Assembly (NCBI GenBank): GCA_022181065.1
Contig: BQMY01000115.1
Location: 62,001 to 126,000 of the forward strand
From: Melioribacteraceae bacterium
Lineage (GTDB): Bacteria; Bacteroidota; Ignavibacteria; Ignavibacteriales; Melioribacteraceae
Length of the DNA stretch: 64,000 nt
Direction: 5' to 3'
The position numbers were made by a program, and so were the translations under genes. Below the pieces are notes generated by a model. It was not told the origin of the DNA, searched no databases, and saw nothing but the letters and a program-made list of their open reading frames with translations. This document shows, one piece after another, positions 6,401-55,795 of this stretch; within the stretch, counting starts at the first letter, position 1, and every line of letters begins with the position of its first letter.

Positions 6401-8355
6401 CGGAAGCAAAAGCGGCCAAATTTGCCGAGAATATAAATAACCGGGTACGTTCTGTAAGAAGTTTGCTCAATGCGATAACTTGTGAAAAAAATGAAACTAC
6501 TCCTCAATTAAGAGTTAAATCAGGAACACAGCAGAATGTGCGCAGCATTATTGAGCAATTAAACCTTGGCACAAAACCAAAAACAGAAACAAAAGGTATT
6601 CTTGAACAATTACAGGTCTTCGCGAAAAAACCGGAAATAAATGTTACCGGAGCTCAGAAAACCGCCAACGAACATTTCAGAAACAGAATTTTAACGGGAT
6701 CGATAAAGGGTACTTCGGATATTAAATCCAATCTGCGCAATATTCACCAATATTCCAATATTGATAAGATTTTTGTTGCAGATAAGGAGAACTCTTACAC
6801 AAAATTAGTGGATGGTTCGAAAGCACAATTCAGGAATGACACTAGCCCGTCATTTACAGATAGTGACAAGAATTTTAACGAAATCCGTAAAACGGTAAAT
6901 GTTACTGGTAATATTGGAGAAAATTTACAAAAAACGAATAAAAGTGAAACTCTTTTCAATAACGAAATTAAAAATAATGCGGATAATAAGGTAATAATTA
7001 CATTATCATCTTTAAAATCAAATCTTAAAGTTTCAGATGGTACGGAACTTGTACAAGATATTAAAAATATGTTCCAGGGAAGTTCTAATAGTAATGTTGA
7101 AATAACATATAAACCTGCAAATGAAGTTGCGGAACAACAAGCTGGTAAAACAGGAACATTATTTTCTGAAAACAAACAATCTTCTGCAAATCTTAATTTC
7201 AGAGAAAGGGAATTCATGAACGCTGAAAGAGTACAACAAGTAGAAAGAGAAAACGAGAATATAAAATCTGTTGAAAAACCGGATAATGCTCAATCTGCAA
7301 AACCAAAAATTGATGTTGAAGTAAGGGAGTTATTTAACCTGCTCGAAAAATCCTCAGATAAAACTCTATTATCTCAATTAAAAAGAATGACTGGTCGGTA
7401 TCTGGCAGGTAAATTTGAAATTAAATTGATTGATGATCAACCTGAAACAGCAGTAAATAATAGTGTATCTTATGGCTCCGAAACGAAAGAAACGCAAGGA
7501 AAACAAAGTGTTGATCGTGTGACCGGCTATTTTGATACCTCAAATAGTTTCACTGAAAATGAGAATAAAAGTTTTACAGGTACAAACAGTGATACGAAAA
7601 AAGAGAGTTCACAGCAGAATTATCCGTTTCATCACTCTGGTGAAGATAATAAAATAGAATTTAAAGAGTCTTTCAGATTCGACGGTCCCGGTTTAAGAAC
7701 TGACGAAAAAAGCAATACAAAAATTGAAACTAGACGATCAGAAGAAATTCCGGCGGAAAAACAAGACGCTGCCGCTAATCAGACAATGTCAACCGGTGAA
7801 AACAATACCGCATTTTTAAGCGATGATAAAGAGAACTTCGAAAATGTAAAAGACTTCTTTAATATAAGTGATAATAAGGTTGTAAGTGATTCAATAAAAA
7901 CATCAAGCGTTTTTACCACTGATGATCCGGTCAAGCATGTTAAAGCTAAAAACCTTATGCCGGAGATTTCAAAATTCTTCGAGCAGAAGTACAATAATTC
8001 TATCACTTTCAAGATCACTCCAGAACATCTGGGTAAAGTGAGGGTTTCACTAAAACTTGTTAATGATGTTCTGAAAGCATCAATTGAAGTTGAGAATGAA
8101 CAGGTAAAACAAATCGTTGAAAATAACATGAGTTCTCTCAAATCAACACTCATGATGAACGGACTAACAACCGGTGATATTAATGTGATGGTTTCAAATC
8201 AGAGTACGAAACAAAGTAAATATTTTCCACATCAGAAAAAACGTGACAAATCATTTACTGATGAAAGGGAATCAGTTGAAACAGCACAGATGGATGATTC
8301 AACTTTAATTAACAGAAGAAATTACGGTTATAACACTTACGAATTTACGGCTTAG
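3466..8355 (+). CDS. fliK: Giant flagellar hook-length control protein FliK
   Basis: FliK measures hook length and switches export specificity from hook to filament substrates. Only the last ~140 residues look folded. Residues about 1490-1585 match the Flg_hook domain, with the core sequence ITFKITPEHLGKVRVSLK followed by an alternating helix-strand region ending in NVMVSNQ. The other ~1450 residues are low-complexity and rich in Lys, Ser, Thr, Asn and Glu, predicted disordered. At 1629 residues it is about three to four times the usual FliK length. An internal near-duplicate (VEVKPEAAKELKTVEIES and VEVKPESANELKTVKIQS) starts at nt 5521 and 5734, 71 codons apart. The gene sits in the canonical place before flgD. 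Confidence 0.9.
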   Translation: MLFNSLLISLQNNQAAPEAGIDLKNKVRGLGVMFGDLMTKTTSVSTDVDSGVLNDNIKSVLANPDILSGIQLVIDNPEKITKSGLLTKLVRSDSKTSPQDVLESLKQNPDIKLTEIPEGTLISTTKLEALLQANSVENLPGLVIKVSAGGEVKSFLVTPEDNTGTKTNIPSLLQQLIPAGTLAPVEAEVLSAKFNSSGEIIVATEAGKSVEPISLTVVDAKKLLAELTKINSGNVISARSSDTLTAQAELPIQNSEGKTIVTEEMQSSNENPKVSDNSAVTTLYKKLYIKDKEPGKTADIIVVPNTVESNVATTVNSTDETSVPEQKANITTSVDSTHKSDQTYNKNTNVTETITPTSVKATTGELNTNDTPGTQKVVNENQTPVQESGEKTASLKTNIAAKEILSTPEKVINDADAFVSESKDKSMHNTSVDAKNDVNYTKSAENKSTPTGNMSAEGSPETVKKTIKMNSDISVSGTNSKHVVNTRGTDDAKIVSAKTEPDKIKVEEKSTILAANNKTTSEKIAVNGTSSELKDNTQKDSNTASINTSVEKELPKSTTGLIDNSVGKAESNSNITKPSQTPQVNSDKIKDAPVESTKPNLAQNPDFIKKSISSATDQSNAKDVVSNENQKSVKSELVSGITEKTVKDENIKFVASSDKVSGLNAAKKSPKTLTSEDTTATSSKVEVKPEAAKELKTVEIESISVDKKVSSNVDDAASNKNVAKTTQDTPATSVKQNENVRVNAPVVNEKVNSTRVEVKPESANELKTVKIQSLSVDKNAGTNSANPNSTETNLSATQHKAETTLLNQSKTTALENIAGDLTNNEKLSVKQKPVTGNNVTYTKSEVSEGVKPIVTQPSAKQDVKIATTTSEIPKVSTKNTDISISEITKVIDTKNSNSPSPKVAVSEIIPEVKKTTTVNSPKIDFIKDSSKIEIESDDNIEAGKAKTAGKVNNDVKPELSKSDVADRKKFVTEGSEKNAEAKAAKFAENINNRVRSVRSLLNAITCEKNETTPQLRVKSGTQQNVRSIIEQLNLGTKPKTETKGILEQLQVFAKKPEINVTGAQKTANEHFRNRILTGSIKGTSDIKSNLRNIHQYSNIDKIFVADKENSYTKLVDGSKAQFRNDTSPSFTDSDKNFNEIRKTVNVTGNIGENLQKTNKSETLFNNEIKNNADNKVIITLSSLKSNLKVSDGTELVQDIKNMFQGSSNSNVEITYKPANEVAEQQAGKTGTLFSENKQSSANLNFREREFMNAERVQQVERENENIKSVEKPDNAQSAKPKIDVEVRELFNLLEKSSDKTLLSQLKRMTGRYLAGKFEIKLIDDQPETAVNNSVSYGSETKETQGKQSVDRVTGYFDTSNSFTENENKSFTGTNSDTKKESSQQNYPFHHSGEDNKIEFKESFRFDGPGLRTDEKSNTKIETRRSEEIPAEKQDAAANQTMSTGENNTAFLSDDKENFENVKDFFNISDNKVVSDSIKTSSVFTTDDPVKHVKAKNLMPEISKFFEQKYNNSITFKITPEHLGKVRVSLKLVNDVLKASIEVENEQVKQIVENNMSSLKSTLMMNGLTTGDINVMVSNQSTKQSKYFPHQKKRDKSFTDERESVETAQMDDSTLINRRNYGYNTYEFTA

Positions 8356-47566: not shown

Positions 47567-48145
47567 ATGATTGCTATAATCGGATACGACCCTGAAGAGG
47601 GAATTCGGCTTTCTGAAAAATTAACCTCCCTGAGTATTGAAAATACCGTTACAAAAAACGAAAAAGTTATTTGTAGCGCGGATCGCGTAATATTACCTCA
47701 TTGTACAAACATCGATAAAGTGTCGAAAAAGCTTCAGATATTGAATCTCAATACGGTAGTAAAAATGATAAAAAAACCGGTTTTGGGTATTATGAGTGGT
47801 GGCTGCCTCATGGGTGAAGCCGTTACACGTGATAAATTACCCGCTTTGGGATTTTTCCCGGGACAGTTTTGCCATGATTCTAATCCAATTAATGCCGAAT
47901 GCCTTGAATTAAAATGGAAACCTGCCGACGAGGATCCACCTTTTTTCCAAAATAATATCGTTTTGAAAAATATCACCTGTAAACCGGTCGGTAATAAATC
48001 AGAACCAAATGGTTTTTATTATAAACTAAATGGAACTGATTATCCCGCGATTCTTAAATCAAAGCGCAACCTGGCTATCTTTATTGATCTTCTTGAGACA
48101 GGCGCATATGGAGACGATCTGCTTATTTATTTTAATCAGTTATAA
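47567..48145 (+). CDS. HisH-like class I amidotransferase homologue lacking the catalytic Cys
   Basis: The 192-residue protein follows the HisH fold: IAIIGYDPEEGIRLSEKLTS, then ADRVILPHCTNIDKVSKKLQ, then KPVLGIMSGGCLMGEAV and LPALGFFPGQF. In HisH the nucleophile elbow reads G-I-C-L-G-M-Q; here Met76 stands at the Cys position and the only nearby Cys is Cys80. The His-Glu of the C-terminal H-P-E motif also has no counterpart. It therefore looks like a glutaminase-dead relative. It begins one base after the flavoprotein gene and its end overlaps trpA convergently by 10 nt. Confidence 0.7.
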   Translation: MIAIIGYDPEEGIRLSEKLTSLSIENTVTKNEKVICSADRVILPHCTNIDKVSKKLQILNLNTVVKMIKKPVLGIMSGGCLMGEAVTRDKLPALGFFPGQFCHDSNPINAECLELKWKPADEDPPFFQNNIVLKNITCKPVGNKSEPNGFYYKLNGTDYPAILKSKRNLAIFIDLLETGAYGDDLLIYFNQL

Positions 48146-48942
48146 ACTCTCCTTGCTTCTGATAGTTCAGAAATGAGTTCAATCGTTCTATCCCATTCTG
48201 TTTTGTTGCTATAATCATCTGCAATAGCTTTAATAACAGCACTTCCTACAATGATACCATCACAATAAGGTGTAAATTTCTGAACACTCTTTGCATTAGA
48301 AATACCAAATCCTATCAGCATATGATTGTTTTTAATGATTCGTCTCGTTCTTTCAAGATTTTTCAGAGTATCTTCTTCAAAATCATCTCGTGTGCCTGTT
48401 GTACCAAGTATGCTCACACAGTAAACAAATCCGGAACCAATTTCATCAATCGTTTTTATTCTTTCTTCTGATGAAACAGGTGTTGTGAGTAATATTTTAT
48501 CTATTTCAGGGATCATGCCATTATAAAAATCGGAAAATTCTTCAACAGGTATGTCCGGCAGAATCACACCATTAACGCCCGAGTTTTTACACTGAATGAG
48601 GAATTTCTCCAAACCATATTTCATAACAGGATTTGAGTAACCCATCAGCACTAAACCTTTTTCCGGGTAGTTCTTTTTAAGAGACTGTGATGTTTTGAAT
48701 ATGTACTCCATAGTCACACCATTTTCAAGTGCTGTTTGCGAAGCTGTCTGGATAACAGGACCATCTGCTAATGGATCACTAAATGGAATTCCAAGTTCAA
48801 TTATGTCCGCGCCCGCGTCATAAATTGCTGAACAGACTGATATTGTCGATTCAAGAGTTGGAAAACCTGCTGTGACAAAAACTGAAAGAACTTTTCTATT
48901 ATCGTCGTTGGTTCTTTTAATAAGTTTTTTGAGGAATGACAT
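48136..48942 (-). CDS. trpA: Tryptophan synthase alpha subunit TrpA
   Basis: TrpA cleaves indole-3-glycerol phosphate to indole, which is channelled to TrpB. The 268-residue length is typical. The catalytic residues Glu49 (in DIIELGIPFSDP) and Asp60 (in LADGP) fall at the same numbers as in the Escherichia coli enzyme. The later GFGISNAKSVQKF and GIIVGSAVIKAI match the phosphate-binding part. It is the last gene of the trp operon and shares one base with the trpB stop. Its end overlaps the convergent HisH-like gene. Confidence 0.97.
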   Translation of the reverse strand: MSFLKKLIKRTNDDNRKVLSVFVTAGFPTLESTISVCSAIYDAGADIIELGIPFSDPLADGPVIQTASQTALENGVTMEYIFKTSQSLKKNYPEKGLVLMGYSNPVMKYGLEKFLIQCKNSGVNGVILPDIPVEEFSDFYNGMIPEIDKILLTTPVSSEERIKTIDEIGSGFVYCVSILGTTGTRDDFEEDTLKNLERTRRIIKNNHMLIGFGISNAKSVQKFTPYCDGIIVGSAVIKAIADDYSNKTEWDRTIELISELSEARRVYN

Positions 48943-50147
48943 TATTTCACCTCCCTGAATTTATCAACTATGGTATTGAGGTCTTTATCACCACGCCCAC
49001 TTACATTTACAATTACGATTTCGTCTGATGTAGTTTTCGGCATCAATTCATTCAGGTAGTAAACCGCGTGAGCTGTTTCGAGAGCCGGAATTATTCCCTC
49101 TTTTTCAGTTAGCAGTTTTACCCCTTCCAAAGCCTGTTTATCATCGACATATTTATATTCTGCAAGCTGATTTTTATGTAAATAGCTGTGTTCTGGACCA
49201 ACACCAGGATAATCGAGTCCTGCTGATATTGAATATACTTCCGAAACTTGTCCTTCGTTATTGTGAAGGAGCATTGTTTTCATTCCCTGAAAAATGCCAT
49301 CTGAGCCGAGTGTGAGAGTTGCACAGTGCTCATCTGTATCAACGCCAAGCCCGGCGGCTTCAACACCAATCAGTTTGGTTTTTTCTCCAAGAAAAGGATA
49401 AAATATACCAATAGCGTTTGATCCTCCACCAACACAAGCGAGAATATAATCTGGTAATTTGTTTTCAAGTTCAAATAATTGACTTTTAGCTTCAATACCA
49501 ATAATCGATTGGAAATCTCTAACGAGCATAGGGTAGGGGTGCGGACCGACAACTGAACCAATAATGTAATGAGTATCTTCTACATTTGTGACCCAATCTC
49601 TTATAGCTTCATTTGTAGCGTCTTTTAATGTTTTGGTGCCTGAACTAACCGGTACTACCCTGGCACCAAGCATTTCCATTTTGAAGACATTAAGTTTCTG
49701 TCTTTCAACATCCAGCTCGCCCATATAAACGACACATTCAAGACCAAACTTTGCGCAAACTGTTGCGGTAGCCACTCCATGTTGTCCGGCGCCGGTTTCA
49801 GCGATAATTCTTTTCTTGCCCAATTTACGGGCAAGAAGGATCTGACCAAGCGCATTATTTATTTTATGCGCACCTGTGTGGTTCAAGTCTTCCCGTTTTA
49901 GATATATTTTCGCTTTACCGAAGTGCTCAGTTAACCTTTCCGCATATGTTAGTGGGGTAGGTCGTCCATTATATTCTGATTGCAAACGAAAGAGTTCGCG
50001 ATTAAATTCAGGGTCAAATTTTAATTTTGAGTATGTTTCAATTAATTCATACAGAGCGGGGATAAGAGTTTCAGGAACATACATTCCCCCATATTCACCA
50101 AACTTACCCCTCGGATCAGGTAATTTGTAAGTAGTATTTTCTATCAT
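48942..50147 (-). CDS. trpB: Tryptophan synthase beta subunit TrpB
   Basis: TrpB joins indole with serine using pyridoxal phosphate. The 401-residue protein has the cofactor Lys95 in [14 protein letters not shown], the glycine-rich phosphate loop [12 protein letters not shown], and the N-terminal [15 protein letters not shown], all conserved. It is a TrpB1-type subunit suited to pairing with the adjacent TrpA. It overlaps the DAHP synthase gene by 4 nt. Confidence 0.98.
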
Positions 50148-51163
50148 AGTATAAGTTCTTTATCAACAATGGGTGCAAGTTGTTTAATTTTATTTAATAG
50201 TCTTTCAAATTGGTCGAAATTTAAAGATTGATAACCATCTGACATCGCGTTTGCAGGATCATTATGAACTTCAAGTATTAGTCCATCAGCTCCAGCCGCA
50301 ACCGCAGCGAGTGACATAGCGGGTACTTTGTCACCAATTCCTATTCCATGAGATGGATCTACTATTATAGGTAAATGAGAATGTTTTTTAATTACCGGAA
50401 CCGCATTTAAATCCAGCGTATTTCGAGTAGCTGTTTCAAAAGTTCTTATACCTCTTTCACACAACATTACATTGAAATTATTGTGTGCCAGAATGTACTC
50501 CGCGCTAAGAAGTAAGTCCTCTACAGTAGCTGACATACCGCGTTTCAACAGTACAGGTTTACCCGTTTTACCGACTGCGTCAAGGAGTGAGAAGTTCTGC
50601 ATATTCCTTGCACCAATTTGAAAAACATCAGCCACCTCGCCAACGCCATCAATAGTATAAGGATCGAGAACTTCTGTTACTATTTTAAGACCATACTGTT
50701 CTTTAACCTGACCAAGTAGTTCTATTCCTTTTTCCTTCAACCCCTGAAAAGAATAGGGACTTGATCGCGGTTTGTAGGCACCGGCGCGCATAAATTTGAT
50801 ACCCAATTTGGCTAATTGCTCGGCAATTGTAAAAATCTGATCACGATTTTCAACCGAACACGGACCGGCGATTATTGTCAATTCTTTACCGCCTGTTGAT
50901 GTACCGCCAAAATCTATAACGGTATCATCTTCCTTCATCATTCTGCTGACCAGTTTGTATTTTTTAGTAACTCTTACAACATCTTCAACAGAATCCATTA
51001 TCATAAAGTCTTCTGTCTTTAATGTGCCTGTAGGGCCGGTCAATCCAATAGCTAATCGGCTTGCGCCCGGAATTTCATGCGCTGTGCAGCCAAATGACAC
51101 AACTTTTTTTTTCACACTCTCTATATCATTTCTTGGAGCGTCAAGGTTCATTAGTATCAGCAA
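50144..51163 (-). CDS. aroF: 3-deoxy-7-phosphoheptulonate (DAHP) synthase inside the trp operon
   Basis: The enzyme makes DAHP from phosphoenolpyruvate and erythrose 4-phosphate, the first shikimate step. The TTG start (51161-51163) is chosen because AGGAGG lies 5 nt upstream, it yields the family-type start [10 protein letters not shown], and it begins one base after trpF ends. A longer frame runs back into trpF and is not used. Residues about 1-75 are the ferredoxin-like regulatory domain. The catalytic barrel has [38 protein letters not shown] and DPSHGIG. This is the type I-beta form without a fused chorismate mutase. Confidence 0.95.
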
Positions 51164-51164
51164 T

Positions 51165-51776
51165 TTAGCCTCCTGCTTCTCTGAATACTCTAAATAATTC
51201 TTCCATTTTTTTATGATCTTTTTTACCAGGTTCAATCTCGATTGAGGAAGACACATCAACGGCATATGGTTTTATTTCCTCGATGATTTCTCCCACATTA
51301 TATCTCGACACGCCACCTGCCAAAATTATATTGTTCCTTTTGCGTTGCGGGATAAGTCCCCAATCAAATTTTTCACCGGTTCCTCCAAACAAGTTTGCAT
51401 TGAATGAATCCAGCAAAAAAGTGGTATTTACAAATTGTGACATTATATCCAGATCACTTTTATCCTTTACTCTGATCGATTTTATAAATGGTCTGACCAG
51501 TTTTGCCGCGTATGCAGGGTCTTCATTTCCATGCAGTTGTAAAATATCGATTCCGGCATATTCAGCGATTTTATTAACCGCCTTTACGTCTTCATTTACA
51601 AATACCCCAACCTTTGTAGTAAATGGTTTTAGCGACCTCGATATTTCTCTTGCAATTTCGGGGGATATATATCTTTTACTCGCGCCAAAAAAAATAAAAC
51701 CGATTGCATCTGCTCCGAGTTGCTCAGCCTTTAATGCGTCATCCAGATTAGTAATACCGCAGATTTTAATTTTCAT
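51165..51776 (-). CDS. trpF: Phosphoribosylanthranilate isomerase TrpF
   Basis: TrpF performs the Amadori rearrangement in tryptophan synthesis. The 203-residue barrel begins KIKICGITNLDDA, with the catalytic Cys6. GADAIGFIFFGASKRY follows, then DILQLHGNE and FLLDSFNANLFGGTGEKFDW with the catalytic Asp. The ending AVDVSSSIEIEPGKKDHKKM is typical. It overlaps trpC by 11 nt and precedes the DAHP synthase gene by one base. Confidence 0.97.
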   Translation of the reverse strand: MKIKICGITNLDDALKAEQLGADAIGFIFFGASKRYISPEIAREISRSLKPFTTKVGVFVNEDVKAVNKIAEYAGIDILQLHGNEDPAYAAKLVRPFIKSIRVKDKSDLDIMSQFVNTTFLLDSFNANLFGGTGEKFDWGLIPQRKRNNIILAGGVSRYNVGEIIEEIKPYAVDVSSSIEIEPGKKDHKKMEELFRVFREAGG

Positions 51777-52572
51777 TTAAGCACCACTCTTTAAAATGTT
51801 TAACAGAATCATCAATGTTTTTTGCTCTCATAAAGTGTTCCCCAACCAGTAGTCCGTCAATAAACCCGTTATTGGCGATTTTTACACTTTCTTTATCAGA
51901 AAAACCGCTTTCACCAATAATTACGATTTCCGGATTATCATTTTTCAAAGATTCTCCAATCTTGACAGAGCGGGTTACATCAACAGAAAAATTGCGTAAA
52001 TCCCTGTTGTTTATTCCAATTATTCTATTAAAACTAAAGTCAATTTTTGCTGCTTGATCATAAGAATGTAGTTCGAGCAAAACTTCCATATTATTTTCGT
52101 AAGCAGCGTGTGTTATTTCCTGTATCTGGTTTTGTGATAATATTTCTGAAATCAAAAGAATAATATTCGCGCCATTAGCTTTTGCCTCATACACCTGGTA
52201 TTCACTTATGATAAAGTCTTTCCTCAGCAGGGGAGTATCAAACCTTTCCGCGATCTGATAAAGGAATGAAATATCTCCCTTGAAGAAATTTTTATCGGTA
52301 AGAACAGAGATAGCGTCAACATCGTTATTTGAATATATCTCCGCAATATTCAGGTGGTCAAAATCTTCACGAATAATACCTTTTGATGGACTCGCTTTTT
52401 TAATTTCTGAAATAATTGCCAGTGATTTATCTCGTTTAAATGCCGACTCAATATTTTTTGAATTTAACGACCAAAATTTGCTATCTCTGAATTGGCTCAA
52501 ACTATTATCCCTTTTCAGTATAGCAACTTCTTCTTTTTTTACTTCTACAATCTCCCGGAGAATATTCGTCAT
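51766..52572 (-). CDS. trpC: Indole-3-glycerol phosphate synthase TrpC
   Basis: TrpC closes the indole ring. The 268-residue protein has the N-terminal ILREIVEVKKEEVA, ISEIKKASPSKGIIREDFD with the catalytic Lys, and TPLLRKDFIISEYQVYEAKA. GINNRDLRNFSVDV follows, and GESGFSDKESV forms the phosphate site. It is a free TrpC, not fused to TrpF. It overlaps trpD by 4 nt and trpF by 11 nt. Confidence 0.97.
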   Translation of the reverse strand: MTNILREIVEVKKEEVAILKRDNSLSQFRDSKFWSLNSKNIESAFKRDKSLAIISEIKKASPSKGIIREDFDHLNIAEIYSNNDVDAISVLTDKNFFKGDISFLYQIAERFDTPLLRKDFIISEYQVYEAKANGANIILLISEILSQNQIQEITHAAYENNMEVLLELHSYDQAAKIDFSFNRIIGINNRDLRNFSVDVTRSVKIGESLKNDNPEIVIIGESGFSDKESVKIANNGFIDGLLVGEHFMRAKNIDDSVKHFKEWCLNEN

Positions 52573-53582
52573 ATTTCATTCGTCATTTTTTTTAGTTCTT
52601 CCAGTTTTTTAATCGCCTTTCCTCTGAATAATGTGTCTTCAGCCAAATGGACTGCTTCTTTCAGATTGTCGCATTTTGAAGATGTTAAAAGGGCTAAAGC
52701 AGCATTGGCGCAAACAACGTTAGTCCTGGTGTTGGGTTCTCTCGCGTTAAATACATCCAATAATATTTGAGCGTTTTCCTCTGGCCCACCACCTCTGAGA
52801 TCAGAAAGAACAACATGTTCGTATCCAAAATCAGCAGGTGAGAGAATCGATTTCTGAAAACCAGCTTTATTATCATACTCAAATTGAGCGGTATTTCCTG
52901 TTAAAGTAACTTCATCATAACGGTTCTCGGTACAAATGAAATCAACTCTTTCCAAATCAAGATACCTGGCAGCAGCAGCCATTTTTGAAGCTGCTGCTTC
53001 ATTAAATGTACCGATCAATTGTCTTTTCGTTCCAGCCGGATTTGTAAGAGGACCGAGCATATTAAAAATTGTTTTTGTCGCCAATTCCCGTCGAACAGGT
53101 GCAACATGTTTCATTGCAGGGTGGTAGACAGGCGCAAAAAGAAAAGCAATTCCAATTTCATTAAGAACTTGTTCCGATTTATCCGGTGACAATTCAATAT
53201 TAACACCAAGATATTTCAGAACATCAGCCGAGCCGCTTTTGCTTGATATTGAACGGTTACCATGTTTAGCTACAGTAACACCCGCCGCAGCTGTTAATAT
53301 CGATACCGCCGTTGATATATTAAAGGTTCCTGAATTATCTCCACCGGTTCCACAGACATCAATAGAATCAATGTTATCGGGTTTTATTTTTACTCCATGT
53401 TCTCTCATCCCTAACGCGAATCCGGCAATTTCTTCTGCTGTTTCACCTTTTAGTTTTAATGCGGTTAAAACCACTGATTTTTTAATATCAGAAATTTCGT
53501 TCTGCAGGAACATATCTGAAAGTGATTTTGCTTCTTCCAGGGAAAGGTTCTCTTTGCTTAAAAGTTTATTTAATAAATCCAT
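52569..53582 (-). CDS. trpD: Anthranilate phosphoribosyltransferase TrpD
   Basis: TrpD transfers phosphoribose from PRPP to anthranilate. The 337-residue length is normal. The PRPP-binding signature VCGTGGDNSGTFNIST is present, followed by AKHGNRSISSKSGSADVLKY and GPLTNPAGTKRQLIG. The N-terminal helical domain reads LSLEEAKSLSDMFLQNEIS. It follows trpG directly and overlaps trpC by 4 nt. Confidence 0.97.
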   Translation of the reverse strand: MDLLNKLLSKENLSLEEAKSLSDMFLQNEISDIKKSVVLTALKLKGETAEEIAGFALGMREHGVKIKPDNIDSIDVCGTGGDNSGTFNISTAVSILTAAAGVTVAKHGNRSISSKSGSADVLKYLGVNIELSPDKSEQVLNEIGIAFLFAPVYHPAMKHVAPVRRELATKTIFNMLGPLTNPAGTKRQLIGTFNEAAASKMAAAARYLDLERVDFICTENRYDEVTLTGNTAQFEYDNKAGFQKSILSPADFGYEHVVLSDLRGGGPEENAQILLDVFNAREPNTRTNVVCANAALALLTSSKCDNLKEAVHLAEDTLFRGKAIKKLEELKKMTNEI

Positions 53583-54149
53583 TTATAAATCCAGCCAGTT
53601 TTTAATAATTTTTTCACCATCGGGAGTTAGAACAGATTCAGGATGAAACTGGATACCTTCAATGGGCATATTTTTATGTCTGACACCCATAATGGTTCCT
53701 TCCGCGGTTTTGCAAGTTACCATAAGTTCATCCGGAAGAGTTTCGGGATCAATTACAAGAGAATGATACCTGCCGGCCTTGAATCCGTTAGAAATACCAG
53801 TATATACGTAATTATCAGAGTGAAAGATATCTGAAGTTTTACCGTGCATCAATTCCGGGGCATATGTGATTTTTGCACCAAATACTTCTCCAATAGTTTG
53901 ATGTCCCAGACATACTCCTAACAAAGGTATTTTTGACCCAAGCTCAGTAATTACCTTCGGAGAGATGCCAGAATCAGATGGTCTGCCTGGTCCGGGTGAG
54001 ATAACTATTTTATCCGGTTTCATCTCTGCTATTTTTTCAATCGAGATTTTATCATTCCTGAAAACATGGATATCACTGGTAAAAACTCCGAAAAGGTGCA
54101 CAAGGTTGTATGTAAATGAATCATAGTTATCAATCATTATTATTTTCAT
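53583..54149 (-). CDS. trpG: Anthranilate synthase glutaminase subunit TrpG
   Basis: TrpG supplies ammonia to TrpE. The ATG giving MKIIMIDNYDSFTYNLVHLF is chosen because GGAGG lies about 6 nt upstream; a few codons further upstream are open but unlikely. The catalytic Cys is in LLGVCLGHQTIGE, and the His and Glu are in GIQFHPESVLT, so the triad is complete. The 188-residue protein lies within the trp operon and overlaps the trpE end by 20 nt. It may also serve folate synthesis, as TrpG often does. Confidence 0.96.
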   Translation of the reverse strand: MKIIMIDNYDSFTYNLVHLFGVFTSDIHVFRNDKISIEKIAEMKPDKIVISPGPGRPSDSGISPKVITELGSKIPLLGVCLGHQTIGEVFGAKITYAPELMHGKTSDIFHSDNYVYTGISNGFKAGRYHSLVIDPETLPDELMVTCKTAEGTIMGVRHKNMPIEGIQFHPESVLTPDGEKIIKNWLDL

Positions 54150-55611
54150 CAATAACCTCCGCAAACTTTATTGAATTCACTAAAACCGCCGATTTGTTAT
54201 ATATTTCCTGTAATTCATTTTCGGGCTTGCTATCAGCGACAATTCCGGCGCCAGCTTGCCAAAAAAGCTTGTTTTTACTCGCGAATATAGTTCTTATCGC
54301 AATACACATATCCATATTTCCTCTGAAGTCAATATATCCTACCGCACCGGCGTAAACATTTCGTTTTAGCTGTTCGTAATCATCAATTAGCTGCATAGCC
54401 CTGATTTTTGGAGCGCCCGAAACTGTACCGGCAGGGAAGCAGGCTTTAAGCGCGTCAATAACATCCTTGTCATGATCCAGTCTCCCTTCAACTCTCGAAA
54501 CGATATGCATAACATGGGAAAATCTGTGAATATTTTTATTCTCAGTTACTTTTATCGAGTTGAAATCACAAATTCTCCCGAGATCATTCCTCGCCAGATC
54601 AACGAGCATTACGTGTTCGGCTATTTCTTTGGGATCCGAGAGTAAATCTTTCTCATATTTTATATCTTCATCATCAGTTTTGCCCCTTGGCCGTGTACCG
54701 GCAATAGGTAAGATTGTTGCCTTATTATTTGAGACAGATAGCAGATCTTCCGGAGAAGTTCCAACAATAGAAAGCTCATCACCATAGCCGAGATAATACA
54801 TATATGGTGACGGATTTATCATTCTTAACGCACGATAAACGTTAAGCAGATCTCCCGAGAAATTTGTGCTGAATCTTTTCGATAAAACTATCTGGAAAAT
54901 ATCCCCCTCATATATTTTTTCTTTTGCGGATTCGACTGATTTATAAAACAGGTTTTGTTCTTCTGTTGTAAGATCTGAAGGATCTTCGATACCAAATTCA
55001 GAAATATTTCCCTCTGACCTGAACAACTCTGATTTTATTCCATTTACTCTCTCAAGACCTTTGGTGTATGCCTCTTGAGTTGACTTATAATCTTCAATAA
55101 ACATGTTGGCGACAATGATCATTTTATGTTTAGAATGGTCGAACACCACGATATCTTTATAAAGTGACATTATTGAGTCAGGTACACCCAGCTCATCCTT
55201 ACCGGAAGGTGTTAAGACTTCTTCAATAAGACTAATAGTCTCATATCCGATATAGCCTACATATCCACCGGTAAAGGAGGGGAGAGATTCAACTGCCGGA
55301 TAATTGAATCGAGCGATTTCAGATTTTAGAAATGAAAATATATCAGTCTCTGATTTATTCTCAATTCCGTTTTCAAGAATTTGCGTCTGATTGTTTATTC
55401 CCCTGGCAACTTTGTGTGGATTTCTACCAATGAATGAATATCGGGCGAGACGACCAATGCTTTCGACAGATTCAAACAAAAAAGGATACCTGGCATCAAC
55501 CCTCAACCTGCTAAACGCGAGTACAGGAGTAAGCAAGTCGGCGGTTATTTCCCTGAATACAGGAACAATTTTATATTCTGACGCTAATCGTTCAAATGAT
55601 TCTAAAGTCAT
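54130..55611 (-). CDS. trpE: Anthranilate synthase component I TrpE
   Basis: TrpE makes anthranilate from chorismate. The ATG at 55611 gives 493 residues and lies 5 nt after GGAG, which itself directly follows the U run of the attenuator; an upstream extension reads through the terminator and is not used. The N-terminal PFLFESVESIGRLARYSFIG contains the L-L-E-S-like tryptophan feedback site. The catalytic half has GDIFQIVLSKRFS, LPIAGTRPRGKTDDED and AGTVSGAPKIRAMQLIDDYE. It heads the operon. Confidence 0.97.
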   Translation of the reverse strand: MTLESFERLASEYKIVPVFREITADLLTPVLAFSRLRVDARYPFLFESVESIGRLARYSFIGRNPHKVARGINNQTQILENGIENKSETDIFSFLKSEIARFNYPAVESLPSFTGGYVGYIGYETISLIEEVLTPSGKDELGVPDSIMSLYKDIVVFDHSKHKMIIVANMFIEDYKSTQEAYTKGLERVNGIKSELFRSEGNISEFGIEDPSDLTTEEQNLFYKSVESAKEKIYEGDIFQIVLSKRFSTNFSGDLLNVYRALRMINPSPYMYYLGYGDELSIVGTSPEDLLSVSNNKATILPIAGTRPRGKTDDEDIKYEKDLLSDPKEIAEHVMLVDLARNDLGRICDFNSIKVTENKNIHRFSHVMHIVSRVEGRLDHDKDVIDALKACFPAGTVSGAPKIRAMQLIDDYEQLKRNVYAGAVGYIDFRGNMDMCIAIRTIFASKNKLFWQAGAGIVADSKPENELQEIYNKSAVLVNSIKFAEVIDENNND

Positions 55612-55620
55612 ATAAACTCC

Positions 55621-55655
55621 AAAAAAAAAACCCTTCCAGGTGAATACTGAAAGGG
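55621..55655 (-). terminator. trp attenuator terminator
   Basis: On the minus strand CCCTTTCAG (55655-55647) pairs with CTGGAAGGG (55639-55631) across a seven-base loop, a 9-bp stem with one U-G pair. Ten U follow (55630-55621). The trpE ribosome-binding site comes immediately after. It lies between the Trp-rich leader peptide and trpE, exactly where an attenuator is expected. Confidence 0.92.
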
Positions 55656-55736
55656 CTTTAAAATCCTTCAATGATTATAATTCACTTGGGCAAAGATTAC
55701 GGATTACTCCACCACCAAAACCAAATTGAATTAAAA
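55640..55736 (-). promoter_or_regulatory. Alternative pairing segments of the trp leader RNA
   Basis: On the minus strand, segment 1 (55736-55721, codons 9-13 of the leader peptide) can pair with segment 2 (55690-55675) at 13 of 16 positions, including AATTCA/TGAATT. Segment 2 also contains GTGAAT (55685-55680), which pairs with ATTCAC (55645-55640) in the terminator loop and arm. That pairing would break the terminator stem. A ribosome stalled at the Trp codons would cover segment 1 and leave segment 2 free. This matches the classical 1:2, 2:3 and 3:4 logic; folding energies were not computed. Confidence 0.65.
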
Positions 55737-55759
55737 CCATGTTTTTTACTGTTTATCAT
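55697..55759 (-). CDS. trpL: trp operon leader peptide with four Trp codons
   Basis: A 20-residue frame, MINSKKHGFNSIWFWWWSNP, ends at TAA (55699-55697). It has Trp at positions 13, 15, 16 and 17, four of twenty, against a background where Trp is rare. It lies between a promoter and an intrinsic terminator ahead of trpE, as in enteric trpL. No Shine-Dalgarno sequence precedes the ATG, and the predicted transcription start falls at or within a few bases of the ATG. Translation may therefore be leaderless. The role, sensing charged tRNA-Trp by stalling, is inferred from the arrangement. Confidence 0.85.
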   Translation of the reverse strand: MINSKKHGFNSIWFWWWSNP

Positions 55760-55763
55760 GTGC

Positions 55764-55795
55764 CAAATATAGGGAAACATAATATTATTTGTCAA
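55764..55795 (-). promoter_or_regulatory. trp operon promoter
   Basis: On the minus strand TTGACA (55795-55790) is followed after 18 nt by TATATTTG (55771-55764). It satisfies both the sigma-70 pattern (TTGACA, TATATT) and the Bacteroidota TTG/TAnnTTTG pattern. The predicted start of transcription lies near 55757-55760, at the leader peptide ATG. Confidence 0.8.

Follow-up and report, generated by a model that had tools for sequence, protein, structure and literature searches.

The window, by which we mean the whole 64,000-nt stretch of DNA analysed here, is part of a 4.9-Mb genome and carries a tryptophan operon on its minus strand, in the order trpE-G-D-C-F-DAHP synthase-trpB-A. The first gene, trpE (54130..55611), encodes anthranilate synthase component I (PF00425, 1.2e-90; PF04715, 1.7e-30), and is followed by trpG (53583..54149; PF00117), trpD (52569..53582; PF00591 and PF02885), trpC (51766..52572; PF00218), trpF (51165..51776; PF00697), a gene for DAHP synthase, the first enzyme of the shikimate pathway (50144..51151; PF00793 and NF006421), trpB (48942..50147; PF00291 together with operon position) and trpA (48136..48942; PF00290). 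With the DAHP synthase gene placed between trpF and trpB, the first shikimate step would share the trp attenuator described below. The closest named TrpE matches came from an unclassified Bacteroidetes MAG (L004, 60%), a Melioribacteraceae MAG (L005, 58%) and Ignavibacteria MAGs, and NCBI taxonomy places the Melioribacteraceae in the Ignavibacteria, Ignavibacteriota, FCB group. An initial sequence-only reading of this DNA had suspected an FCB-group host, and the relatives bear this out.

The region upstream of trpE contains the parts of an attenuator, all on the minus strand. A -35 box TTGACA (55790..55795, identified by reading the sequence) and a -10 box TATATT (55771-55766) are separated by 18 nt and match 11 of 12 consensus positions (55795-55766); the -10 box lies within TATATTTG (55764..55771), which also fits the TAnnTTTG box of Bacteroidota. 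The leader ATG (55759) is found 6 nt after TATATT and opens a 20-codon ORF, MINSKKHGFNSIWFWWWSNP (55697..55759), whose first base is also the predicted first base of the transcript. The regulatory Trp codons are codons 13, 15, 16 and 17 (TGG TTT TGG TGG TGG, 55709..55723). Segment 1 (55721..55740), within the leader ORF, forms the 5' strand of a protector helix, and segment 2 (55671..55689) forms the 3' strand and contains the antiterminator strand GUGAAU (55685-55680); both segments were defined by folding and covariation. An inner antiterminator strand, AUUGAAGG (55665..55672), pairs in the stalled-ribosome fold with CUUUCAGU (55653-55646), which belongs to the 5' arm of the terminator. The intrinsic terminator hairpin (55627..55659; loop UAUUCAC, 55646-55640) was supported by sequence, fold and terminator scan, and has 13 pairs including A-U pairs, with a GC-richer core of nine. 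It runs into a tract of ten T (55621..55630), four of which the terminator scan assigns to the stem, and then into GGAG (55617..55620), a Shine-Dalgarno-like motif of trpE, the ATG of which is at 55611. The sequence-only reading had proposed this promoter, the 20-residue peptide with Trp at 13, 15, 16 and 17, and a terminator with ten U just before the trpE ribosome-binding site, and each was recovered where it had been placed. We also observed that the trpE frame is open from a TTG at 55671 across the terminator (54130-55671), meaning that automatic annotation could set the trpE start upstream and hide the attenuator.

The RNA corresponding to 55759-55612 folds at -40.9 kcal/mol, whereas shuffled sequences average -27.3 (z -3.7; 1 of 200 shuffles as good). 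Besides the terminator, the fold contains an 18-bp helix that joins 55740-55721 to 55689-55671; this helix is slightly longer than the pairing first proposed (55690-55675 with 55736-55721). A second pairing in the original proposal, between segment 2 and the terminator loop, is also present as the complementarity of AUUCAC (55645-55640) to GUGAAU (55685-55680). These 6 bp have a shuffle p of 0.11 in the window alone, and we therefore rejected the window by itself as a source of significance for the loop pairing and turned to the relatives for it.

Trp-rich frames are rare in this DNA. Across the whole window, only three of 1555 short ORFs (8-45 codons, starting with ATG, GTG or TTG, on both strands) had at least three Trp in eight codons, and four Trp were found solely in the leader frame. 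A T-box, a riboswitch or another known RNA family was rejected as an explanation, since nothing reached the Rfam gathering threshold in the window or in 12 related loci. Rfam RF00513 (Trp_leader), which we take to be the family of the E. coli/enteric trp attenuator (trpL), did not appear when 401 bases were searched up to E=5, which gave 13 matches. The weak matches in the leader (E 0.036-4.8; for example, His_leader with 24 bits against a cut-off of 49) were probably driven by the terminator. Searches of leader-peptide profiles gave no match for two peptides in Pfam or four in NCBIfam, although peptides of 20-35 residues are poorly served by profiles.

To place the leader among its relatives, TrpE was searched for in 197 genomes of the class (85 matches at 1e-60) and 79 genomes of the family (51 matches). 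Twelve of the 85 class genomes with trpE were left out as distant paralogue-like copies or fragments (G012, G021, G024, G031, G041, G051, G112, G121, G144, G154, G170 and G181), and one own-family fragment (G226) came without upstream DNA. Among the 110 trpE upstream regions gathered, 79 passed a loose cut-off and 74 passed a stricter cut-off that included a terminator. In the own order, which comprises families f1 to f3 with f1 as the own family, all 59 trpE upstream regions contained a Trp-rich ATG ORF with at least two Trp in eight codons, and 57 had at least three. At the looser two-Trp cut-off, control regions upstream of ilvD and hisG gave 0/60, reverse strands 0/59 and shuffled sequences 19/1180. 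Leaders with a terminator were found in 50/50 (f1), 8/8 (f2) and 1/1 (f3) regions of the own order and, in the rest of the class, in 5/5 of f7, 3/3 of f20, 2/2 of f14, 2/4 of f24, 2/8 of f5 and 1/2 of f25; the two f24 regions lacking a leader belong to second trpE copies. Under the stricter filter, no Trp leader was detected in the 27 trpE upstream regions of f6 (0/4), f10 (0/12), f18 (0/5) and f19 (0/6), so the switch appears from these sequences to be absent or lost there; three f10 regions held chance ORFs with two scattered Trp each.

Beyond this set, 22 of 80 named loci passed the loose cut-off, and 12 of them were judged by eye to be real trp leaders (L004-L010, L013, L017-L019 and L054), six of which are not independent, as L004, L005, L009, L017, L018 and L019 are the same loci as G231, G099, G146, G045, G035 and G054. 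Locus L054, from an Aminicenantes MAG outside the group, has a Trp leader ending ...YYYWWYMRVGL some 120-200 bases upstream of trpE, with a promoter near the ATG and an arrangement that by eye resembles the classical 1:2, 2:3 and 3:4 pairings. A search of the phylum found TrpE in 252 of 296 genomes. Outside the class, 43 trpE upstream regions were sampled and 34 gave matches; L205, L208 and L226 were rejected as spurious Trp ORFs that had no WW cluster with a terminator, leaving a Trp leader with terminator in 31/43.

The number of Trp per leader ORF ranged from 2 to 5. We also noted a hexamer, ACATAT or AAATAT, that is conserved in relatives at the nucleotide level about 18 nt after the leader ATG, at a constant position relative to the leader's 5' end (alignment made with G145, G180 and G225 set aside). 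In the window it is degenerate (ACATGG, 55742-55737). Where codons 7-8 read Thr-Tyr, ACA was used in 33/36 Thr codons and TAT in 35/36 Tyr codons. A conserved peptide function for these codons was rejected, because the conservation is at the nucleotide level and was seen out of frame too. In several leaders the hexamer is the outer part of the segment 1 pairing, which would account for its constancy in part at most.

Covariation of the alternative helices was assessed by a permutation test, in which own-genome duplex energies were compared with those obtained after segments were re-dealt among genomes. The test covered 69 of the 74 leaders (f1, f2, f3, f7, f14 and f20), and energies are given for 48 non-redundant leaders. 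The protector 1:2 had an energy of -16.8 kcal/mol with its own partner compared with -12.8 when permuted (sd 0.43), and the antiterminator 2:3, taken as segment 2 with the loop and its flanks, had -11.9 compared with -8.7 (sd 0.38); in both cases none of 2000 permutations reached the own-genome value. The control pairing 1:3, which the model does not predict, showed no own-genome preference (-8.3 versus -8.9 kcal/mol; 1989/2000 permutations as good). The sequence-only reading had made its case depend on close relatives sharing a Trp-rich frame and alternative pairing, and they share both: the frame is present throughout the own order, and the two helices covary.

The geometry of the leaders is consistent with this picture. 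Before the terminator has been made, the antiterminator strand is paired upstream (P>0.5) in 47 of the 55 leaders whose helix has a shuffle p<=0.1; the window falls outside those 55, with a helix p of 0.11, and has an upstream-pairing P of 0.94. Individually, the best helix with the loop and 3' arm has a shuffle p>0.05 in 29/74 leaders and in 19/59 of the own order, the window included. Among the own-order leaders, 49 of 59 have p<=0.1, and in these the distance from the last Trp codon to the beginning of the antiterminator strand is 16-26 nt (median 21, sd 2.1), while that to the end of the stop codon is 12-39 nt (sd 7.7). The strand is thus held at a constant spacing from the Trp codons and not from the stop codon, as a stalled-ribosome sensor requires. 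The strand overlaps the stop codon in 27/74 leaders (25/59 of the own order), where a terminating ribosome would cover it.

Pseudoknot-free folding was used to model the switch. In the window without a ribosome, P(1:2) was 0.94 and P(2:3) was 0. A ribosome on Trp codon 13, 15 or 17 reduced P(1:2) to 0 and gave P(2:3) of 0.89-0.99 until the 3' arm was nearly complete, and a ribosome at the stop codon gave P(1:2) of 0.65-0.83. Once the full hairpin was available, the terminator won at equilibrium in every state, including that with a stalled ribosome, and the switch must therefore be kinetic in this model, acting during synthesis. Applied across the own order to stalled and ribosome-free states, this rough model, free of kinetics, gave an antiterminator P>=0.5 in 45/59 leaders when stalled, with 14/59 falling short, and 28/59 leaders reached P>=0.5 at some length with no ribosome.

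We then compared the best helix of segment 2 with the terminator 5' arm, as in the enteric type of topology, with its best helix with the loop and 3' arm. In the own order the loop/3'-arm helix was better in 53/59 leaders, the 5'-arm helix in five, and one was a tie (mean scores 18.3 and 10.3); the real pairing was reached by 0/2000 permutations for the loop and 3' arm, and by 20/2000 for the 5' arm. The rest of the class leaned the same way, with the loop/3'-arm helix better in 13/15, a sample too small to test alone. Outside the class the preference was reversed: the 5' arm was better in 24/31 leaders (19.5 versus 13.7; 0/2000 permutations), and the loop/3'-arm helix was no better than permuted (405/2000). 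The window itself is modelled as a mixture, in which CCA and GUGAAU pair with the start of the 3' arm and the loop, while AUUGAAGG pairs with the upper 5' arm. The sequence-only reading had recognised the logic of ribosome-mediated attenuation, best known from enteric bacteria; the antiterminator does covary, but in the own order it is not of the enteric 2:3 type, and segment 2 is directed mainly at the loop and 3' arm.

These results allow two other accounts of the antiterminator to be weighed. The locus could be a plain E. coli-type attenuator, in which segment 2 would really antiterminate by pairing with the 5' arm and the loop/3'-arm helix would be no more than a by-product of a symmetric terminator. 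Classical 2:3 pairing is what the outside-class sample shows, the stalled fold of the window also engages the upper 5' arm, and own-order 5'-arm pairing is slightly above permutation; set against the 53 of 59 own-order leaders that favour the loop and 3' arm, the failure of every permutation to match them and the wide difference in mean score, we consider this account unlikely, though it deserves to be kept in mind. Less probable still is a pseudoknot between segment 2 and the terminator loop that leaves the lower stem intact, so that termination would be tuned and not abolished. The core pairing in the window does lie within the 7-nt loop (AUUCAC in UAUUCAC) and does not touch the lower GC-rich stem by the T tract, but in many relatives the helix extends into the 3' arm, up to 13 bp, and excludes the upper stem.

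We give roughly even credence to the broader proposal that the switch of the Ignavibacteria differs in kind from the enteric one. The freed strand would act as a mimic of the terminator's upper 5' arm, capturing the loop and the emerging 3' arm, with antitermination being won in a few nucleotides as the 3' arm exits the polymerase. With the leader ATG as the 5' end of the RNA, loading, stalling and capture would follow one another in a single, closely timed sequence. The enteric 5'-arm switch would persist in other lineages of the phylum, making a change of topology around a constant sensor traceable. On this proposal, an antiterminator can shift its target from the 5' arm of a terminator to the loop and 3' arm with no change in the sensor or the logic.

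The position of the promoter led us to predict that the leader ORF is leaderless, or nearly so. An exact TTGACA or TTGACT was assigned as the -35 box in 49/59 own-order leaders, each assignment being the best among many placements. Between the -10 hexamer and the chosen leader ATG the distance is 6-15 nt in 54/59 own-order leaders and 6-10 nt in 44; 40/59 have a single ATG, and where there were several, we took the in-frame one whose distance from the -10 box came closest to 10 nt, a mild bias (for G235 and G237 it was set by hand). Outside the class the distance is 6-10 nt in 27/31 leaders, with ties between -10 boxes resolved towards 8 nt, again a mild bias. The TAnnTTTG box is reported at -12 to -5 in the accessible text of PMC9723704; this spacing would put +1 of the window at 55759, the A of the ATG, with a 5' UTR of 0 nt, and would give the other leaders about 0-9 nt. 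A Shine-Dalgarno core precedes 1/74 leader ATGs, compared with 32/74 trpE ATGs. Of the five leaders in f7, four have their ATG 33-34 nt downstream of the -10 box and are thus not leaderless. If the prediction is correct, the first ribosome would load on a naked 5' AUG, and transcription-translation coupling would be directly testable there.

Taken together, an amino-acid-rich short ORF lies directly upstream of the operon, an intrinsic terminator stands between this ORF and the first structural gene, and there is covariation both of the protector helix, between the leader-coding segment and the antiterminator strand, and of an antiterminator exclusive with the terminator, the latter weak in the window alone (p 0.11). 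With the conservation of the parts, the fixed spacing from the Trp codons to segment 2 and the switch modelled in the window, these features point very strongly to control of the trp operon (trpE-G-D-C-F-DAHP synthase-B-A) by ribosome-mediated transcription attenuation. The sequence-only reading had arrived at the same mechanism, and the Trp frame conserved in 59/59 leaders and the covariation of both helices now support it.

For this attenuator we infer the transcription start, the ribosome positions, the kinetics and the response to tryptophan as follows. RNA polymerase would initiate on the leader ATG or immediately beside it; loading of a ribosome on the 5' end of the nascent RNA would be independent of a Shine-Dalgarno sequence, as the promoter position suggests. 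When Trp-tRNA is ample, the ribosome would pass the W-F-W-W-W codons and terminate; segment 2 would then be either paired with segment 1 or covered by the ribosome at the stop codon, and in both cases the terminator would form and transcription would stop before trpE. Under a shortage of Trp-tRNA, the ribosome would stall on the Trp codons and cover segment 1, and the freed segment 2, about 20 nt past the last Trp codon, would capture the terminator loop and the start of the 3' arm, allowing read-through. In the window, the upper 5' arm would also be captured, by AUUGAAGG.

It is very improbable that the leader instead senses free tryptophan by nascent-peptide arrest, in the manner of TnaC, and not the supply of tRNA-Trp. 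Such a sensor would suit the Trp-rich peptide and its constrained position with respect to a structure further downstream, but the most clearly conserved stretch beyond the Trp cluster, codons 7-8, is conserved at the nucleotide level and falls within the segment 1 pairing in several leaders, and the number of Trp per ORF varies. That a Trp-rich frame stands by chance, or as a relic, beside an ordinary terminator with no regulatory role can be virtually dismissed, being contradicted by the conservation, the covariation and the permutation tests.

Similar leaders were observed before two other amino acid operons of the own genome. On contig C121, a His-rich leader, MTAKKLNTTHMHWHHIITFELAGG, with a terminator precedes hisG (L241:8384-8458, minus strand), and in the family a His-rich leader was present in 26 of 30 hisG upstream regions examined, out of 39 matches. 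Two tandem Ile-rich leaders, MKNTIINIIIIIIVIIG and MYKTNSHIIISIIIIVIIGIIDG, each with a terminator (contig C121, L240:7452-7505 and 7325-7396, minus strand), precede ilvE-D-B-N-C-A, the gene names being assigned by eye except for ilvB; from its sequence this is a putative double isoleucine attenuator. A search for relatives with tandem Ile leaders based on ilvE returned only the own genome (1/57), and so ilvD was used instead. Among 30 ilvD upstream regions examined in the family, of 31 matches, one other genome (L244, ilvD 69% identical) had a tandem pair, with two Ile/Leu-rich leaders and terminators at the equivalent place; the own ilvD was not flagged in this survey because ilvE stands before it. 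On sequence grounds, each sister leader fits the pathway that it precedes, which speaks for the attenuator reading of the trp leader.

The enteric trpL attenuator consists of a leader peptide with Trp codons, a protector 1:2, an antiterminator and a terminator, and the locus described here shares all of these elements, as well as the operon that they precede. It differs in having no Rfam match at gathering, in its predicted leaderless start with no Shine-Dalgarno sequence, and in an antiterminator strand that targets mainly the loop and 3' arm, not the 5' arm. Canestrari and colleagues reportedly described, in 2020, leaderless poly-Cys uORFs of mycobacteria that act as amino-acid-responsive attenuators; these are alike in being leaderless short ORFs, but sense cysteine and belong to the Actinobacteria. 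A 2004 abstract by Vitreschak and colleagues is said to mention candidate attenuators in Bacteroidetes/Chlorobi, in which case a broad presence would be a known prediction. Among the literature matches listed, which cover titles and abstract openings with most subscription papers outside their scope, none reported a trp leader from Ignavibacteria or an antiterminator directed at the loop and 3' arm.

Before describing a case of their own in Firmicutes, the authors of a 2010 study knew, leaving ermC aside, of leader-peptide systems in the Proteobacteria and Actinobacteria only (accessible text of PMC2965389). The trp attenuators of Corynebacterium and Streptomyces, as described in part of PMC1262725, carry a double or triple UGG in the leader peptide and have a terminator with poly-U behind it, and so resemble the present leader in a different phylum. 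For Flavobacterium psychrophilum, the available passages of PMC9723704 suspect leader-peptide attenuation at amino acid operons, and those of PMC7366714 describe sORFs in long 5' UTRs of Bacteroides thetaiotaomicron; both organisms share the broad FCB clade, and the same passages present no trp leader, covariation or mechanism. Unlike the predicted leader here, leaderless mRNAs are rare in these bacteria according to those passages, at 5.5% in F. psychrophilum (PMC9723704), and about 3.7% of 5' UTRs are <10 nt in B. thetaiotaomicron (PMC7366714). The emphasis that the sequence-only reading placed on attenuation outside the Proteobacteria is accordingly justified by the FCB host, but tempered by the known attenuators of Actinobacteria and the one suspected in a flavobacterium (from the accessible text of PMC1262725 and PMC9723704). 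The trpL of Sinorhizobium meliloti offers a likeness in the start, as its attenuator RNA (rnTrpL) begins at the trpL ATG of a leaderless ORF, a feature that is predicted here; it differs in belonging to an Alphaproteobacterium and in a 14-residue peptide with reported trans functions (accessible text of PMC7298713). The covariation evidence extends ribosome-mediated attenuation before trp operons to many lineages of a phylum that usually stands outside the textbook account. The principle is an ordinary one, and what is new is the taxon, the predicted start and the topology of the switch.
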